A stretch of DNA of 64,000 bases from Pelodictyon luteolum (lineage in GTDB: Bacteria; Bacteroidota; Chlorobiia; Chlorobiales; Chlorobiaceae): assembly GCA_020721225.1 (NCBI GenBank), contig DYNE01000003.1, positions 26,395 through 90,394 of the forward strand, in the 5' to 3' direction. Below are positions 44,494-54,055 of the stretch, piece by piece. The notes beneath the pieces were generated by a model, which was not told where the DNA came from, ran no database searches, and saw nothing but the letters and a program-made list of their open reading frames with translations. The translations under genes and the position numbers were made by a program. Every line of letters begins with the position of its first letter. Positions within the stretch are counted from its first letter, which is position 1.

Positions 44494-44683
44494 ATTCGCG
44501 TACTTATTGTTAATAAGTGTTAACAATCGTTAATATCGATGGTTTTTTTCAAATTTCCAAAAAAAATGGTTTCCGGAAATTCTGGTATCCGGAGATATGT
44601 TGTGCTGTCTTGCGATATTTTATTTTATTGCAGTCGGCGGCATCTGAATCGCCGTATCGGCATTTACATTTAACCGGATATTT

Positions 44684-45118
44684 ATGGGATATATAGAAGC
44701 GGTGTGCATCAGCAGCGAAAAAGGGGTTGTTAAGAGGACAGTGCCGGAAATCGTTCTTCGAGAGGGTTGGGGAATCGAGGGTGACGCGCATGCCGGCGAT
44801 TGGCACCGTCAGGTTTCCATGCTGTCCGGGGAGAGCATCGACCGGATGCGCGAAAAGATGCCGGAACTCGATCACGGGATCTTCGCCGAGAATATCGTGA
44901 CGAGGGGGATAGATCTTGTATCGCTCAAGCCGGGCGAGCGTTTGATGGTCGATGGAGGGGCAGTGCTTGAAGTGACCCAGATCGGCAAGGAGTGCCATAA
45001 TGACGGCTGCGCGATTCAGAGGGCAACGGGTGATTGCATCATGCCGCGTGAAGGGGTTTTCTGCAGGGTATTGCAGGGCGGCAGAATACATGCCGGTATG
45101 CAGGTTGTAACGCTATAG
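44684..45118 (+). CDS. MOSC domain protein
   Basis: GYIEAVCISSEKGVVKRTVPEIVLREGWGIEGDAHAGDWHRQVSMLS; FAENIVTRGIDL; GKECHNDGCAI. Confidence 0.93.
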   Translation: MGYIEAVCISSEKGVVKRTVPEIVLREGWGIEGDAHAGDWHRQVSMLSGESIDRMREKMPELDHGIFAENIVTRGIDLVSLKPGERLMVDGGAVLEVTQIGKECHNDGCAIQRATGDCIMPREGVFCRVLQGGRIHAGMQVVTL

Positions 45119-45123
45119 GCCGT

Positions 45124-46122
45124 TTATCCTCCGATTTCCGACATGCTGGTTCGAAGGTTTTCTCCCTCGCCCTGATTTCTTCCGTCTTCAGGTTTCTGGT
45201 GGACAGCCGTTCTGAACAGGTCGCTGATTTCTTCGATTTCCGCATTTCGCTGGAGCAGCGGCAGCAGTTCGATTCCCTGTTTGTCGTAAAGGCAGCTGAT
45301 GACCGTACCTTCCGATGTGATACGTATGCGGTTGCACTGACTGCAGAAATTTCTTGTGTAAGCCGGTATGATTGCTGTCGAACCTTCATAACCGGAAAGG
45401 CTGAAACTGAAATATTCGGTTGATGTTCCCCGGTGTTGCAGCAGCTCGGGATAAATCTCGCGGAGCAGTGCCTGGATTTTATCGAGACCGAGAAATCTGC
45501 CGGTTTTCCATATCTGGTGGTCGTCGAACGGCTGCAGTTCCATGAAGCGGACCGTTACGGCATGCTCCCTGGTGAACTCCATGAACTCTGCGATCTCATC
45601 ACTGTTGATGCCCCGCATCATCACGACGTTGAGTTTGACCGGTATGGCTTTCGATGCAAGCAGGATATCGAGATTTGCCTTCACCTGTTCAAATACGTCC
45701 CGGCGGGTTATGGCCCGATAACGCTCCCGGTCGAGGGTATCGATACTGAGGTTAAGGGCATCAAGTCCCGCTTTGCGCAGTCCGTCAAGGTGTTTGTGGA
45801 GCAACACTCCGTTGGTGGTGAGTGATACGGTCTCTATGCCGACGGTATCTTTCGCTGTTCTGACAAGCTCGGCAATATCGTTGCGCAGCAGCGGTTCTCC
45901 TCCGGTAAAACGTATTTTCCTGATACCAAGTCCGGCAAGAATTCTGATCAGAAGCGCAATGTCTGCAGTTTTAAGGGTGTCGCGATGGCTGGCCGACGAG
46001 TGGCACTCGTGCTCTTCGCTCATGCAGTAGGTACAGCGGAGATTGCATCGGGAGGTTACGGCTATGCGGGCGTAGCTGATGGTTCGTTGGAACCGGTCGA
46101 TGAGTGGGTTCTTACTGCTCAA
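45124..46122 (-). CDS. moaA: GTP 3',8-cyclase MoaA
   Basis: ISYARIAVTSRCNLRCTYCM; RFTGGEPLLRND; FCSQCNRIRITSEGTVISCLY. Confidence 0.97.
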   Translation of the reverse strand: MSSKNPLIDRFQRTISYARIAVTSRCNLRCTYCMSEEHECHSSASHRDTLKTADIALLIRILAGLGIRKIRFTGGEPLLRNDIAELVRTAKDTVGIETVSLTTNGVLLHKHLDGLRKAGLDALNLSIDTLDRERYRAITRRDVFEQVKANLDILLASKAIPVKLNVVMMRGINSDEIAEFMEFTREHAVTVRFMELQPFDDHQIWKTGRFLGLDKIQALLREIYPELLQHRGTSTEYFSFSLSGYEGSTAIIPAYTRNFCSQCNRIRITSEGTVISCLYDKQGIELLPLLQRNAEIEEISDLFRTAVHQKPEDGRNQGEGENLRTSMSEIGG

Positions 46123-46212
46123 GGATGCGTATTGAAAGTATAGAGATATCTACCGTTTATCAGAAATGGGCTTTCCTTTAAGATAGGGTATCTCCCCGAT
46201 GAAGCAAACGGT

Positions 46213-47025
46213 TCAGTTCACTCCGAGAATCACGCTCGATGCCTTGAAGACCGCACAGGCGTGCTCACCTTCTCTGAGCCCGAGTTTTTCGGAACTGCCG
46301 TGGGTGATGATTGCCGAAATGACGTTTCCGCCGCCGATTTCAACGTCAACTTCCGTGCTGACCGGTCCTTCGATAACTTTGCCGACAGTGCCGCACATGA
46401 TGTTGCGCGCGCTTATTCGGGCATCGTGCAGATCTCTGCCGATGATAATGGAGTTCGACTTGATGATGGCATAAGCGTTCATGCCCTCCTTCAGACCGAG
46501 ATTGTCGACGGCGCCGATGGTGATGACCGAGGTGACAAGCGGTCCGTTCGGAAGTGCCAGCACTACTTCGGCATTGACCGCTCCGCGTGTGATTTTTTCA
46601 ACGATTCCGGAAAATATGTTTCGTGCGCTGATTCTCATGGATATCCTTCTGAGGAACTGGTAAAGGTTTTTTGTTTCTCCCAGGCGCTCCTCAAGGTTTT
46701 CGAGGAACTTCCGGTGCTCTTCCTGCACAACCCGGAACTGTTCGATGACTTTTTTTCCCTCTTTCGTCAGCAGGGTGCCCCCTCCTCCTTTGCCTCCGGT
46801 CATGCGGTCGACCAGTGGTTTTTCCGAAAGGTTGTTCATCATGTTGACCAGGTGCCATGCGGTCTTGTAGCTTATACCGACGGCTTTGGCAGCACTGTTG
46901 ATCGAACCGAGTTCATCTATTTTTTCAAGCAGGGCTATTCTGTCGCCGCCGAGAAAACGGTTCTGCGCTTTCTGAAACCATATGGAGCCTTCAAGCTCTA
47001 TCGATTGTTTCGGGCATTTTGCCAT
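46213..47025 (-). CDS. modE: ModE molybdate-responsive transcriptional regulator
   Basis: LLEKIDELGSINSAAKAVGISYKTAWHLVNMMNN HTH; two Mop domains (SARNIFSGIVEKITRGAVNAEV, SARNIMCGTVGKVIEGPVSTEV). Confidence 0.95.
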   Translation of the reverse strand: MAKCPKQSIELEGSIWFQKAQNRFLGGDRIALLEKIDELGSINSAAKAVGISYKTAWHLVNMMNNLSEKPLVDRMTGGKGGGGTLLTKEGKKVIEQFRVVQEEHRKFLENLEERLGETKNLYQFLRRISMRISARNIFSGIVEKITRGAVNAEVVLALPNGPLVTSVITIGAVDNLGLKEGMNAYAIIKSNSIIIGRDLHDARISARNIMCGTVGKVIEGPVSTEVDVEIGGGNVISAIITHGSSEKLGLREGEHACAVFKASSVILGVN

Positions 47026-47078
47026 GCGTTTTTTTTCTATGGTTGCAGCGTTCAGCTCTATAAAAGAAAATACGAGTT

Positions 47079-47786
47079 TCAGGCGATAGTATTGCTTTCA
47101 TTGGCAGTTTGAGTGATTTTTTTCAGGATCGCGAACATACCAAGCGAGATGAAGGCGAGGATAACGGACAGGAGTGCGGCTTTTTCAAAGTTTCCCTCGA
47201 ACACCGCATTGTAGATAGCCAGCGACATGGTTTCCGTTTTTTCGCTGATGTTGCCCCCGAGAATGAGCGTGATGCCGACTTCGCCGAACGAGCGTCCGAG
47301 AGAGAGAATGAGACCGGTGAGCAGGGCATACCGGATGTGGGGGAGTACAACCAGGATGTAGGTTTGTGCCCTGCTTTTTCCAAGCGTCCATGATGCTTCG
47401 ATAAGTGAGCGATCCATGGTTTCAATTGCACTCTGTACCGATTTTATCACGAGAGGCAGCCCGGCGATGAACGATGCTATATAAACCCCTGTCGTGCTGA
47501 AGATTATTTCGATACCTGCGCTTTGCAGCGGATGGCCGATAATGCCGTTTCGTCCGAGCAGCAGCAGAAGAAGAAATCCGGTAGCGATCGGGGGAAAGAT
47601 AAGCGGGAGGGTGACGGCCGTGTCCGCAAGGGAGCGGAGGATGGTTTTTCTGCCGGTCAGAAAGTAACCCGCAAGCACTCCTGCAGCAAGATGCAGGGCG
47701 AGGGTTACGGCAGCCGTGTTCAGACTGAGCGTGACGGCGCTCCGGCTGTCGAAACTCCGGATCATTTCGTTTATGTCGAGGGTCAT
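47079..47786 (-). CDS. modB: Molybdate ABC transporter permease ModB
   Basis: LPLIFPPIATGFLLLLLLGRNG; SWTLGKSRAQTYILVVLPHIRYALLTGLILSLGRSFGEVGITLILGGNI. Confidence 0.94.
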   Translation of the reverse strand: MTLDINEMIRSFDSRSAVTLSLNTAAVTLALHLAAGVLAGYFLTGRKTILRSLADTAVTLPLIFPPIATGFLLLLLLGRNGIIGHPLQSAGIEIIFSTTGVYIASFIAGLPLVIKSVQSAIETMDRSLIEASWTLGKSRAQTYILVVLPHIRYALLTGLILSLGRSFGEVGITLILGGNISEKTETMSLAIYNAVFEGNFEKAALLSVILAFISLGMFAILKKITQTANESNTIA

Positions 47787-48511
47787 ATGCCGTAGTGCTT
47801 AAGAACTGCAAGAGACTCTCTCTGTTTCAGAAACCGGAGAAAATCCGTGACCTCTTTTTTCTTTTCGAATCCATTGACGACTGCGGCCTGAATGTCGATC
47901 GGAGAGTAATGGTCACGGGGCACCGGAAGCATCCCTCCGTTTTTTTCCCTTATTCCGATAGCATCGGTAATATTGATAAAGCCCGCATCGATCTCTCCCG
48001 AGACGAGGTAGGCCGAAACCTGCGGTACGGTCGAGAGGGTGATGAGCTTTTGTTCTGTCTTTTTGGATAATCCGGATTTTTTCAGATACTCCGCAGCCGC
48101 ATGTCCATAGATGGCTTTTTCAGGATCGGGTATGCCGAGGCGCCGGACCTCTTTTTTTCGTATATCTTCCAGCCGTTTCAGTTCAAGCCCTTTCCGCCAG
48201 GCAAGCACAAGCGTCCCTTTTCCGACGGGGTGAAAGCTGCTGAAACTGAGCGTCGAGCGGTTCAGAAAACTTTTTTCGCCGAAAACAACCGAGACCTTTC
48301 CGCTGGTTTCGGTCTGGGAGAAGATCTGCTGCATGTTGCCGAATACGGCATCGATATGATGGCCGGTTTTTTTTTCGTAAAGGGCGGCGATTTCCATAAG
48401 CGGGCGTTTGTAGCCTGCGCCTGCAGCGACAGTAAGGGTTTCTGCCTGCAGCAGGCCCGGTATCGCCGCAAGAAGGAACAGGAGAAAGATGATCGTTTTT
48501 TTCTGGTTCAT
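47783..48511 (-). CDS. modA: Molybdate ABC transporter substrate-binding protein ModA
   Basis: ETLTVAAGAGYKRPLMEIAALYEKKTGHHIDAVFGNMQQIFSQ; VSAYLVSGEIDAGFINITDA. Confidence 0.92.
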   Translation of the reverse strand: MNQKKTIIFLLFLLAAIPGLLQAETLTVAAGAGYKRPLMEIAALYEKKTGHHIDAVFGNMQQIFSQTETSGKVSVVFGEKSFLNRSTLSFSSFHPVGKGTLVLAWRKGLELKRLEDIRKKEVRRLGIPDPEKAIYGHAAAEYLKKSGLSKKTEQKLITLSTVPQVSAYLVSGEIDAGFINITDAIGIREKNGGMLPVPRDHYSPIDIQAAVVNGFEKKKEVTDFLRFLKQRESLAVLKHYGI

Positions 48512-48607
48512 CGGAGTAATGAAAAGGTTCGTTGAAAATATTCCCGGCGATCGGCAAAACGCCGGGAATGGTGTAACGGAGAAAGAACAGGCAGTGCAGA
48601 ATCGTTG

Positions 48608-50836
48608 TCAGTAGTGCAGCGCTACGGTTGCCATTACGGTAAACGGAGCGCCCGGCAGGTACGATGTTTTCAGGGTTTTGTAATCGGATGTACTGATCAT
48701 GCTCACATAGTGCTCGTCGAAGATGTTCAAAAGCGACAGCGAGCAGTCAACCTGTTTGAAGCCCGGCATGGCCCTGCTCCAGGTGAGGTCGAGATCGAAG
48801 AGCGTGGTGCCGTCGATTTTCTCTTTGTGCAGCACATCGCCGTAGCGGGTGGACGAGTAGCGCATGACCGGAGAAATGGTGAAGTCGCCGATTTTCCAGC
48901 TTGCCATTGCCTTTGCAAGGAATTCAGGAGCATCGGGCACCTGCGCTCCCTTGACATCGATGAGGCTTCCTCCTTCCGAGTAGATGTCCTGGGTGAACGA
49001 GAACCGGTTCCAGGAGAACGATCCGTAGCATTTGAGGCCTTCGAGCGGCTTGTACTCGGCTTCGAGCTCGATGCCGAAGCCTTCGGCATCGGCATTGTTT
49101 ATAGGGTAACAGGCGTCGATATCGGCATCGTAGAGTACCGCCTGCTTGTTTTCATGTCGGGAATAGTAAACGGTCGGTTCGATGCTCCAGTTGTTTCCGG
49201 TGAAGCGCATGCCGATTTCCATATTTTTCGAGATCTCCATCCGGCGCTTGTCCCAGAGATCCTGGAAGGTTACGCCTTTGTCATGAAACTGCCTGCGCTG
49301 CGAGATATAATAGGGGTAGATATCGACGTGCGTGACGTAGTTCTCTCCGTAGGACGCATGTATCGACGCGTTGTCGCCGAGGAAGCGCGTCAGGGTCAGG
49401 TTGGGAAAAAGCCTGTTGAACGATTTGGTGTCGAGTGCGCTGGCCTCGGCATCGATCGCAGGATCGAGGGCAAGGGCGCCGTCGTAACTGACATCCCCTA
49501 TACCGGCGGTCATGTAGGTGATAATGGATGGCAGGGTGTAGCTGACATATTTCAGCCCGGCTTCGAGCTGGTAGTCGCCGGCGTGCCATACTGCATCGAT
49601 GAACGGCGTCTGCAGTTCGTGGCTTGAGCTGTTCGAGAGAATGCTCCATCCGGCGAATTTCAGGTCGCCGGATGCGGTTACCGTGTAGTTTTTCCACGAG
49701 GTCGGGGGACCGGGCCTTTTCTGGGTATGATAGATGTACCCAAGGTCGAGATCGACGTCGCCGACTCTGGTTTTGTATTCCCCGAGAACTCCTTTGAGGT
49801 CGTGGTCAATGTCCCATCTGCGTATTCTTTGGCCATTGGGGGTGCTGATGGTCTCCAGGTAGTAGCCTTTGTCGCTCCAGTAGTAGGGTTTGACGTTGAT
49901 TTTCGAGCGTTCGCCGGTTTTTATTTCGAGATTGGCCATAAACATCCAGTCTTCGAACTCGTTGCGGTTCCATCCGTAGTAGTCGTAACTGCCGGGTTCG
50001 GTTCCGTAATCGGTTTCGTACGCATGGTCGAGGTCGCCGATCTCGGTATAGGTGAAGGGTTTGTAGGTATGGATGTCGCCTTTGCTCCAGGTCAGGAAGG
50101 TTTCGAGTTTTACGTTGTCGCTGAATTCGCTGGTGATGCCGGCCATCAGGTTTTTCCGTTCGGAATTGCCTTCTCCCTTCCATTTGTCCGCGGAACTCTC
50201 CGAAAAGGAGAGAAACCCTTTTGTGCTTCCTGCAAGCGTTCCGGTGTCTGCGCGCAGGTAGGTGCGGCTGAAGTCGTTGCTTCCGATACTTTGTTTGAGC
50301 CGCACTCCGAACCGGTCTTCGGGCCGGCGGATTTTCATATCGATTTTGCCGCCGACATCGGCAAGGCCCAGCCCTGCATATGCCGGCATGACGCCGGTGT
50401 AGATGTCGATGTCGCTTATGTTTTCGAGGTCGTAGATCGTCGCTCCGCCTCCGGGTCTTCCCGTGACCGGAAGGCTTTCAACGTTGGCTGTGGTAGCCGG
50501 GACGCCTCCAGCCGTGGCTTCGACGCCTCTGAATCGAAAGGATTCATGGTAGTTGACGATATCGGCAAGTCCGTATGGATCGACGCTCTGCTGGCTGAGG
50601 GAGGGCATGAGGTTGATCGCCTTGTAAACAGACATCTGCGACGGGTTCAGTACTTGTGATTCCTTTCCGGTAACCCGTTGCAGGATGTCGCCTTTTTTCC
50701 CCGATACGGTTATCTCTTCCGTGGTATAGTTTTTCCATGCGGTATCAGGTATTTTTTCTTCCGCATTTGCCGTTCCGGCTGCGAGCAGCACGAGCAGTGT
50801 CGTCAGTCTGACGGCTTTTTTGCATCTCTTTTCCAT
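48608..50836 (-). CDS. TonB-dependent outer membrane receptor
   Basis: Plug domain (EEITVSGKKGDILQRV..., DLENISDIDIYTGVMPAYAGLGLADVGGKIDMKIRRP) and beta-barrel ending in aromatic ...VMATVALHY. Confidence 0.92.
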   Translation of the reverse strand: MEKRCKKAVRLTTLLVLLAAGTANAEEKIPDTAWKNYTTEEITVSGKKGDILQRVTGKESQVLNPSQMSVYKAINLMPSLSQQSVDPYGLADIVNYHESFRFRGVEATAGGVPATTANVESLPVTGRPGGGATIYDLENISDIDIYTGVMPAYAGLGLADVGGKIDMKIRRPEDRFGVRLKQSIGSNDFSRTYLRADTGTLAGSTKGFLSFSESSADKWKGEGNSERKNLMAGITSEFSDNVKLETFLTWSKGDIHTYKPFTYTEIGDLDHAYETDYGTEPGSYDYYGWNRNEFEDWMFMANLEIKTGERSKINVKPYYWSDKGYYLETISTPNGQRIRRWDIDHDLKGVLGEYKTRVGDVDLDLGYIYHTQKRPGPPTSWKNYTVTASGDLKFAGWSILSNSSSHELQTPFIDAVWHAGDYQLEAGLKYVSYTLPSIITYMTAGIGDVSYDGALALDPAIDAEASALDTKSFNRLFPNLTLTRFLGDNASIHASYGENYVTHVDIYPYYISQRRQFHDKGVTFQDLWDKRRMEISKNMEIGMRFTGNNWSIEPTVYYSRHENKQAVLYDADIDACYPINNADAEGFGIELEAEYKPLEGLKCYGSFSWNRFSFTQDIYSEGGSLIDVKGAQVPDAPEFLAKAMASWKIGDFTISPVMRYSSTRYGDVLHKEKIDGTTLFDLDLTWSRAMPGFKQVDCSLSLLNIFDEHYVSMISTSDYKTLKTSYLPGAPFTVMATVALHY

Positions 50837-50844
50837 AAGCGAGT

Positions 50845-50867
50845 GTTATGTATGTTTATATATAACG
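50845..50867. promoter_or_regulatory. Candidate ModE operator
   Basis: gttatgta-tgttta-tatataacg: interrupted palindrome resembling the E. coli ModE site (CGTTATAT...ATATAACG), directly upstream of the TonB receptor ATG. Confidence 0.55.
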
Positions 50868-50915
50868 ATGGCCGTTGTAATACCTGTTTTTCTGTCTCTC
50901 GGGCAGATCAGCCTG

Positions 50916-50931
50916 AACGAATATATTCGTT
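50916..50931. promoter_or_regulatory. Perfect 16-bp palindrome in the TonB receptor upstream region
   Basis: aacgaatatattcgtt. Confidence 0.4.
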
Positions 50932-50965
50932 GTGTAATAAAAGGTATAACGGTAAATAAAAAAAA

Positions 50966-51000
50966 CGGAACGCTTTCTCCTCGAAGGATAGAGCGTTCCG
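50966..51000 (-). terminator. Terminator of the nif operon
   Basis: Stem cggaacgct / agcgttccg followed on the minus strand by a run of T. Confidence 0.8.
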
Positions 51001-51013
51001 GCAAACATGCCGA

Positions 51014-51322
51014 TCAGTTGATCAGGTACTCATCACAGGCTTCGCCCTCTTCAAGAGCGTCGAGAATTTCATCGATTTTGTCTTCACTGTCGATTTCGCC
51101 ATACCAGAAGTTTTCCGGATAGACCACTACGACGGGTCCTTTTTCGCAGAGGTTCAGGCATGCGGTTGCCGAAACAGCAACGTCGGACATGCCGCGGTCG
51201 GAGAGTTCGCTTTCGAGATAGGGAATGAGCCCGAGCGACTCTTTTTTGTGGCAGATTCCCTGAGGTGCGCCTTGTGCACGAAAGCTCGCGCAGACGAAGA
51301 TGTGATGCTTTGGTTTGTCCAT
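51014..51322 (-). CDS. Thioredoxin-like [2Fe-2S] ferredoxin
   Basis: MDKPKHHIFVCASFRAQGAPQGICHKKESL...CLNLCEKGPVVVVYPENFWYGEI. The longer ORF runs into the nifB end and is unlikely. Confidence 0.9.
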   Translation of the reverse strand: MDKPKHHIFVCASFRAQGAPQGICHKKESLGLIPYLESELSDRGMSDVAVSATACLNLCEKGPVVVVYPENFWYGEIDSEDKIDEILDALEEGEACDEYLIN

Positions 51323-51411
51323 TATGGTTGTCTTGGTTGTTGATTGTTTTTCCTGTTTCAGATCAGTCGGATCGGCCGGATCTGACTGACCCGACCGATC
51401 GTTTCTTATTA

Positions 51412-52686
51412 TTACCCGCAGCCTCCTCCCGTTCCGGTGCAACTGGTCTTGCATGCATGGATCTGGCTCCCTCTCATCAGGTGTTTCACATCCTGCCCGG
51501 TGAAAACGCAGTGAACGGCATCTTCGATCATGCCCTCCATGACCAGTACCTCGATTCCCTGTTTGTTCAGCACTTTCGTTGGGGAGTCCCCGGCGCCGTT
51601 GACCAGCAGAGCCCTGCAGTCGGCAAGGATGCGTGCAAGCGCTTCCCATCGCTGTTCTCCTCCTCCGGGCAGGGGTGCGGGACGGGAGTCGACAAGCGAG
51701 CAGATGCCGCTGTTGCCGTCCATGCCGTAGATCAGAAAACGATCGGCTTCACCAAGATGCTGATTGATCAACGCTCCTTCGATGCTGCTGACCGCAATGT
51801 AAGGGCGGTGTTCCGAAGGGTTTTTTGGCAGGCTTGCCGCTTCGGCAAGCTTCAGCATCATCTCTTCACTGTTGATTTCTCCGATAATCCCTGCGGCATC
51901 GGCGCGACAGCGTGCGCAGTGCTTCATCTGTGGAAGGAATTCCGATGTGGCTTTCTGGATTTCCGCCACAACGACCGGTGAGGGTTCTTCGATATTTTCG
52001 AACAGGGTTTCCGTGGTCTGATAATAGGGCAGACAGTTCAGGATGTCCGCACCGAGTTCCGAAACCTTACGGGCGACTTCGATGACATGTCCATCATTGA
52101 TGCCGGGAATGATGATGGAGTTCACTTTTGCCGTCACGCCGACCTCCTTGAGGCGCTTCAGAGCTTCAAGCTGATTGCCGATAAGAAGTTTTGCCGCTTC
52201 GATATCGCGGTACATTTTTTTCTTATGACGCACCCACGCATAGATTTCCGAGCCGACCTCGGGATCGATGGCATTGATGGTGATGGTGACATGACTGACC
52301 TGCAATTCGGCAAGTTCGTCGATCCAGGGCATCAGGTCGAGACCGTTGGTCGCAACGCAGAGCAGCATTTCCGGGTAGTGCTCCCTTACCAGGCGCAGCG
52401 TCTCCATGGTTTCGTCAGGGTTTGCGAACGGATCGCCCGGTCCGGCAATACCGACCACGGCAATGTTCGGAGAGATCTCCATGGCCTGCTGCAGGTAGTA
52501 AAGCGCCTGCCGGGGGGAGAGTACCTTGCTTGTGACTCCAGGACGGTTCTCGTTCATACAGTCGAACTTATGGCTGCAGTAGTTGCACTGTATATTGCAT
52601 TTCGGCGCAACCGGGAGGTGAATCCGCCCGAACGTGTGACGGGACGAATCGTTGAAGCAGGGGTGATTTTTAATGTTCAGTGTCAT
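51412..52686 (-). CDS. nifB: Nitrogenase cofactor biosynthesis protein NifB with C-terminal NifX-like domain
   Basis: RIHLPVAPKCNIQCNYCSHKFDCMNENRPGVTSKVLSP; GIAGPGDPFANPDET; C-terminal IAVSSIEGALINQHLGEADRFLIYG. Confidence 0.97.
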   Translation of the reverse strand: MTLNIKNHPCFNDSSRHTFGRIHLPVAPKCNIQCNYCSHKFDCMNENRPGVTSKVLSPRQALYYLQQAMEISPNIAVVGIAGPGDPFANPDETMETLRLVREHYPEMLLCVATNGLDLMPWIDELAELQVSHVTITINAIDPEVGSEIYAWVRHKKKMYRDIEAAKLLIGNQLEALKRLKEVGVTAKVNSIIIPGINDGHVIEVARKVSELGADILNCLPYYQTTETLFENIEEPSPVVVAEIQKATSEFLPQMKHCARCRADAAGIIGEINSEEMMLKLAEAASLPKNPSEHRPYIAVSSIEGALINQHLGEADRFLIYGMDGNSGICSLVDSRPAPLPGGGEQRWEALARILADCRALLVNGAGDSPTKVLNKQGIEVLVMEGMIEDAVHCVFTGQDVKHLMRGSQIHACKTSCTGTGGGCG

Positions 52687-52699
52687 GGATTCCTCCCTT

Positions 52700-54055
52700 T
52701 TACATGTACGTATAACCGATTGATGAAGCATTCTGCCGCTCTTCGATAACCATATTGACGATCCTGTCGAACAGCTCCTGGGTGCCCCGGTATCCGAGGT
52801 GGTGCAGCCGCTGTCCTCCGAAACGGTCGTGAATGGGAAAACCGATTCTCAGAAGCGGAATGTTGTTTTTTCTCGACATGGTGTAGCCTTTGCTGTTGCC
52901 GATCAGAAAATCCGGTTTGAGCACCTTGGCCTCATCTTCGATATCGACGAAGTCCACGCCGTCGCGGATTTTGATCTCCCCTTCATCGAGGTCCGGTACA
53001 AGTTCCCGGATTTTTTTCTTCAGCAGGCCGCTTTTACCCCCGGATGCGCAAAGTACAGGGGTTATGCCGATCTCCAGCAGAAACGCGGTCATGGCAATGA
53101 CCAGATCCTCTTCGCCGTACACGATCGCCCTTTTTTCGAAAATGTACTTGTGTCCATCGGCATAGGCGTCGATGAGACGCCGGCGTTCGTCTTCGTATTT
53201 TTCGGGTACCGGTTGTCCGCTCAGCTCTTCGACCAGCGCAAAAAACCGGTCGCTTGCCTTGACGCCGATCGGAAGTCCCATATGATGACGGGTGACTCCG
53301 AATGCCGATTCAAGATATCCCGCCGCGGATTTCGGGGCTTCAAGCGTTGCTCCGAATTCTATGCTTGCCGATGCGGAACCTGCTGAGGCTATGGTGCTTG
53401 CCGGTGTGCCTCCGGGCGGGATCCGGTGGTATTCGCCCCAGGGGCCGCCGTCAAGTGTTTTCGAATAGTCAGGCAGCAGCATATTGGGAAGCCGGAAGGC
53501 TTCGAGGATCTCCTTGATGTAACGGATATCAGCAGGAGAAATCATATTCGGAAATATGTTCACCGTATGCTGTCGTTCGGCGCCTTTAACCGCAAGAGTC
53601 GCAACGGTGGCACGCACGGCTGCGTGAAACCCGTCGATGTGACTGCCCTGATAACTTGGCGTCGAGGCATGTATCATGACCGGCATGGGGGAGCCGTTCC
53701 TGAATGCCTTTTTATATTCGCGCAGAATCATGGGCACGTCATCACCGATGGTTTCACTCAGACAGGTGGTTGCCAGACCGATAACTTCCGGTTTGTACTG
53801 CTGGGTTACGTTTTTCAGCCCGAGCTGCAGATTATGACTGCCACCGAACACGGCGGTTTCTTCGTTGAAGTTCGAAGAGGCAATGTCGATCGGTTCCTTG
53901 TAGTGGCTGATCAGGTATCTTCTGATATAGGTTGCGCATCCCTGTGACCCGTGCAGGAACGGTACGCATTTTTCTATGCCCCTGAATGCCAGGCATGCAC
54001 CCAAAGGGTTGCAAAGCTTGCAGGCGTTCTGGGTTGCGGTTTTCGCATGTTTCAT
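52700..54055 (-). CDS. nifN: Nitrogenase iron-molybdenum cofactor biosynthesis protein NifN
   Basis: CKLCNPLGACLAFRGIEKCVPFLHGSQGCATYIRRYLISHYKEPIDIASSNFNE. Start at the internal MKHAKT. Confidence 0.95.
   Translation of the reverse strand: MKHAKTATQNACKLCNPLGACLAFRGIEKCVPFLHGSQGCATYIRRYLISHYKEPIDIASSNFNEETAVFGGSHNLQLGLKNVTQQYKPEVIGLATTCLSETIGDDVPMILREYKKAFRNGSPMPVMIHASTPSYQGSHIDGFHAAVRATVATLAVKGAERQHTVNIFPNMISPADIRYIKEILEAFRLPNMLLPDYSKTLDGGPWGEYHRIPPGGTPASTIASAGSASASIEFGATLEAPKSAAGYLESAFGVTRHHMGLPIGVKASDRFFALVEELSGQPVPEKYEDERRRLIDAYADGHKYIFEKRAIVYGEEDLVIAMTAFLLEIGITPVLCASGGKSGLLKKKIRELVPDLDEGEIKIRDGVDFVDIEDEAKVLKPDFLIGNSKGYTMSRKNNIPLLRIGFPIHDRFGGQRLHHLGYRGTQELFDRIVNMVIEERQNASSIGYTYM

Follow-up and report, generated by a model that had tools for sequence, protein, structure and literature searches.

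ModE boxes of green sulfur bacteria have reportedly been described already, the title of a 2003 study by Studholme and Pau naming the same regulator, the same kind of box and the same bacterial group as are considered here; the survey of boxes at orthologs of a TonB-dependent receptor was made in the present analysis. In Escherichia coli, ModE combines a helix-turn-helix domain with two Mop repeats and acts at molybdenum uptake genes through a 28-bp operator, for which the consensus ATCGnTATATA-N6-TATATAnCGAT has been printed (PMC545781). The boxes reported here share these half-sites and the N6 spacer, but differ from the E. coli regulon in that they stand in tandem, the first gene under their control would be an outer-membrane TonB receptor, and the operon lacks modC. 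In the diazotroph Azotobacter vinelandii, TonB-dependent outer-membrane receptors are likewise tied to metal status, although through VnfA1 and without a modAB-modE operon, whereas the receptor described here lies behind ModE boxes (PMC9542535). A literature search covering few subscription journals returned no direct precedent for a ModE-controlled TonB receptor, and no earlier description of this receptor family with its divergent ModA1 partner transporter was found in the literature searched.

Within the 64,000-nucleotide stretch of Pelodictyon luteolum DNA that was analysed (hereafter the window), the original prediction had placed an interrupted palindrome, gttatgta-N6-tatataacg, 9-31 nt upstream of the ATG of a TonB receptor and read it as a ModE-like operator. 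Sequence and position proved exactly as described, with gttatgta-tgttta-tatataacg occupying 50845-50867 and its two edges at distances of 9 and 31 nt from the receptor start codon, whose A is position 50836 on the minus strand. A search of the window for the exact 8+9 palindrome gave no match, and the 28-bp consensus was used in its place. On this measure the proximal ModE box (28 bp, 50842-50869, AGTGTTATGTATGTTTATATATAACGAT), which ends 5 bp from the ATG, is the best-scoring place of the window, matching 17 of the 20 specified positions with a perfect right half, 7 of 10 positions in the left half and an exact N6 spacer, whilst all other places score 14 or below and 100 Markov shuffles of the window all stayed below 17. 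Our analysis also uncovered a distal box absent from the original prediction (50926-50953, TTCGTTGTGTAATAAAAGGTATAACGGT; like the proximal box, without an assigned strand), which matches 14 of 20 positions and lies 84 bp further upstream. The 13 ModE boxes used to derive a weight matrix came from other genomes, and none adjoins this receptor family; because the E. coli consensus served to choose these training boxes, the matrix owes nothing to the window but does depend on the consensus. Scanned over the 64 kb, it ranked the proximal box first (26.2 bits) and the distal box second (20.5 bits), against 5.0 bits for the third-ranked place, which lies outside the box region, and a maximum of 20.52 over 200 shuffled windows; neither score was reached in 5000 local shuffles. 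The two sites are almost certainly ModE operators. At 50916-50931 a perfect 16-bp palindrome, AACGAATATATTCGTT, runs into the edge of the distal box.

Orthologs of the receptor were detected in 7 of the 41 nearest genomes, in 33 of 395 genomes sampled phylum-wide and at 24 loci among contigs titled Chlorobi, Chlorobiales or green sulfur genera; several of these titled-contig loci belong to genomes that the genome search also matched, so that the two sets overlap, and the loci are mutually related. Conservation of the palindrome upstream of orthologous receptors, which the original prediction had proposed as a check, was borne out, as a ModE box was found at all 24 ortholog loci with a readable 5' region, mostly in tandem (20 with N6 and 4 with N5 spacers). 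An N6 box lies within 700 bp in 20 of the 24 loci, 18 of which carry a second box, and in the four N5 loci (L089, L091, L095 and L104) the boxes occupy the same place. Background in the rest of the loci amounted to 12 matches above 14 bits per 284,791 positions, several of them beside other receptor or modA genes. In each of the N5 loci both tandem boxes have the shorter spacer, a coordinated spacing change, whilst another box of the genome that holds L089 retains N6 (G008, C39:11173). The phylum-wide receptor carriers belong to one family except for G026, of the same order, and G217, whose distant relative of the receptor (26% identity; L137:5016-8543) stands beside a periplasmic binding protein with HI1472 (MolA) among its solved matches and may represent another molybdenum-linked receptor.

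The receptor operon borders directly on the nitrogenase genes. The neighbouring nif genes are of the nifHDKEN-B type and end in nifB (51412-52731, minus strand; PF04055 and PF02579), a small 2Fe-2S ferredoxin-like gene (51014-51304, minus strand; NF041612 at 84.8 bits, below the cut-off of 150) and an intrinsic terminator (50958-50999, minus strand), in which a stem at 50967-50999 is followed by a T-tract and a 63-nt stretch folds at -23.6 kcal/mol. An equivalent hairpin and T-tract occur in two close relatives (L015 and L016), and the ferredoxin-like gene adjoins the ModE box in most orthologous loci. Since the terminator closes the nif operon, a separate promoter for the receptor operon is probable in the interval from the terminator to the receptor ATG, which contains both ModE boxes; a simple promoter scan passed no sigma-70-like promoter. 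As originally described, the receptor, modA, modB, modE and moaA genes all run on the minus strand. They are separated by intergenic gaps of 97, -4, 53 and 90 bp and would form a transcription unit of their own, closing with the molybdopterin synthesis gene moaA (45124-46122, minus strand; PF04055 and PF06463).

The regulator itself is encoded within this putative operon (46213-47025, minus strand) and comprises a DNA-binding domain and two Mop repeats, with TIGR00637 and TIGR00638 above cut-off. It aligns over its full length to E. coli ModE (1b9m) and keeps the GISYK-AW helix, the TGGKGGGG wing and the SARN motif, and would therefore be expected to recognise a box of the E. coli type. In related genomes, boxes of the same kind stand ahead of modABC, modE, modD, other TonB receptors and a locus of alternative-nitrogenase/MolB-like type. 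The genome from which the window is taken has them on contig C62, where they lie in front of modD-modABC and on either side of a cobA-like gene with a BtuB-like receptor. In many relatives, the position after nifB and the ferredoxin-like gene carries a ModE box followed by differing molybdenum genes, namely the present receptor, another TonB receptor (G008, G002), modA (G012, G015) or modE (G022). The occurrence of ModE boxes at such varied molybdenum genes supports ModE control. Reading the palindrome as a ModE operator therefore stands on the match to the consensus, the presence of a second box in tandem, the 24 ortholog loci, a same-operon ModE with its DNA-binding helix and wing, and the boxes at other molybdenum genes; control of the receptor operon by ModE is, from this evidence, very likely.

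Some box-bearing places were recorded in more detail. On contig C62 (L059:8589-11649), the boxes beside modD-modABC lie near the BtuB-like TonB receptor (29.7 bits) and the cobA-like tetrapyrrole methyltransferase (33.3 bits). In G005 (L144:1098-6460), tandem ModE boxes lie between a MolB-like permease, which among solved structures matches HI1471 MolB best (251.6 bits versus 183 for FhuB), and a divergent nifH-like/nifD-like pair that we read as of the alternative-nitrogenase type; the permease is followed by an ATPase and then a further TonB receptor. A 17/20 box on contig C40 of the same genome (C40:3240-3267; L004:1501-1528), also present at L072 and conserved with G004, is probably not molybdenum-related; it adjoins hipA-like and other toxin-antitoxin-type genes and is probably a chance match or the site of another regulator.

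Downstream of the receptor gene, the partner transporter resembles ModABC in that ModA1 (47783-48511, minus strand) passes TIGR01256 modA (100.5 bits against a cut-off of 62.5) and ModB1 (47079-47786, minus strand), whose gene overlaps modA1 by 4 bp, has TIGR02141 modB as its best NCBIfam family (175.9 bits, just below the cut-off of 182.6). It departs from ModABC in that ModA1 is only 26% identical to the canonical ModA of the same genome, lacks the N-lobe ligand loops of that protein, has no adjacent modC and comes with a linked TonB receptor. Known ModA proteins hold Ser, Thr and Asn ligands in their N-lobe loops. In all 11 ModA1 members these loops are replaced by AAGAGYKRP (with single substitutions) and FG[NH]MQQ (MHQ in one), whilst the Tyr and Val regions of the C-lobe are retained; judged against the canonical positions, ModA1 does not have the molybdate ligand residues of both lobes. 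The altered N-lobe loops suggest a ligand changed from that of canonical ModA, and ModA1 may not bind molybdate itself. ModA1 was poorly modelled by AlphaFold (mean pLDDT 63.6, with much of the C-lobe below 50), and no pocket claims are drawn from the model. The original label of modA calls for a qualification, since the protein is a divergent ModA, its ligand loops are altered and modC is missing from its operon.

No modC was found in the operon in the window. Canonical modABC lies on contig C62 of the same genome, followed by a stand-alone ModC-like ATPase. Each of the six ModA1-bearing genomes has such an ATPase, as does one genome that lacks ModA1 (Fisher 1.6e-6, uncorrected for kinship), and the ATPase gene is divergently adjacent to receptor-modA1-modB1 in six loci. 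In G001, G013 and G026 it stands beside another modAB pair, so the ATPase may be shared. Some orthologous loci (for example L090, L094 and L097) keep the receptor without ModA1 and ModB1, which makes that ABC pair dispensable for the receptor. The same genome also encodes a stand-alone two-Mop molbindin (L060:134-595, contig C105), homologs of which adjoin the ModC-like ATPase in G001 and G004.

The receptor, TBDT1 (742 aa; 48608-50836, minus strand), matches the TonB-dependent receptor family PF00593 (7.9e-25). Its Pfam plug domain gave no match and the plug is poorly modelled, with an EEITVSG near the N terminus resembling a TonB box by eye. The structural model, reliable for the barrel only (mostly 70-90 pLDDT), matches solved TonB-dependent transporters and, by Foldseek, has its barrel architecture in common with the siderophore and metallophore receptors FecA, FoxA, Fiu, OprC and PqqU. 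It differs from these in sharing at most 15% identity with them and in lying under ModE boxes beside molybdenum and nif genes; as the fold class is broad and many matches fall at or below 15% identity, the fold gives no substrate. The original prediction named iron and cobalamin as alternative signals for the receptor, and these found no backing: an Rfam scan of 44500-53000 returned no match, which argues against a cobalamin riboswitch, and the best match in a Fur-box search (11/19) equalled the shuffle mean, leaving nothing above chance.

Import of a molybdenum species by the receptor is likely, with molybdate, thiomolybdate or a molybdenum chelate as candidate cargo. The strongest rival accepts a true ModE operator but gives the receptor a different cargo needed at low molybdenum, such as vanadium or a chelate supplying nitrogenase with iron. 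The sequence relatives of the barrel are siderophore receptors, in G005 a nifH-like gene stands close to the receptor locus and a second ModE-boxed locus is of the alternative-nitrogenase type, and TonB receptors of A. vinelandii respond to molybdenum and vanadium status via VnfA1 (PMC9542535). We nonetheless regard a cargo other than molybdenum as unlikely, given operon partners that are modA, modB, modE and moaA, a nitrogenase next door of the nifHDKEN-B type and the lack of a Fur box above chance.

Taking molybdenum as the cargo, we infer the following scheme of repression and TonB-coupled uptake. With molybdate plentiful, molybdenum-loaded ModE dimers would bind the proximal box and the box 84 bp upstream; the proximal box sits at the likely promoter and the translation start, a position from which bound ModE would block either, shutting off the whole receptor-modA1-modB1-modE-moaA operon, modE itself included. 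When molybdenum is scarce, the receptor would be made and a molybdenum species would pass across the outer membrane in a TonB-driven step. ModA1 would then bind this species in the periplasm, and ModB1, working with a ModC-like ATPase encoded elsewhere (the stand-alone one or the ModC of the genome), would pass it on to the cytoplasm, where it would serve FeMo-co and Moco. As a whole, this model of repression at high molybdenum and import of a molybdenum species is, in our estimation, probable. Activation by ModE, with the operon rising with molybdenum, would turn the regulatory half of the scheme around. The moa operon of E. coli is activated by ModE, moaA is part of the operon described here, and the distal box, 84 bp upstream, could serve activation. 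A proximal box 5 bp from the ATG fits a steric block instead, and molybdenum-uptake operons such as modEABC of A. vinelandii are ModE-repressed (PMC9542535), which makes activation quite improbable. That the palindrome is a functionless, chance AT-rich inverted repeat is barely credible, for although this intergenic region has 40% GC and 1 of 5000 shuffles of it reached the consensus score of 17, the box recurs, mostly paired, at every readable ortholog locus and ranks first in the window on a matrix built from other loci.

Green sulfur bacteria fix nitrogen and inhabit sulfidic waters. Against this background, the conservation of the boxes at all 24 loci suggests that molybdenum in some form is actively taken up through the outer membrane in such waters. 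More tentatively, and with the balance tipping somewhat against it, the receptor, ModA1, ModB1 and the separate ATPase may constitute a dedicated route, running from the outer membrane into the cytoplasm, for molybdenum in a form other than free molybdate, for example thiomolybdate or a molybdenum chelate. An outer-membrane receptor behind ModE boxes, paired with a ModA whose ligand loops are not of the molybdate type, provides a concrete and testable candidate in these organisms, and the ModE regulon is likely to extend to several families of outer-membrane receptors. If it exists, the dedicated route would let bacteria of sulfidic waters reach molybdenum that the ordinary ModABC transporter misses.
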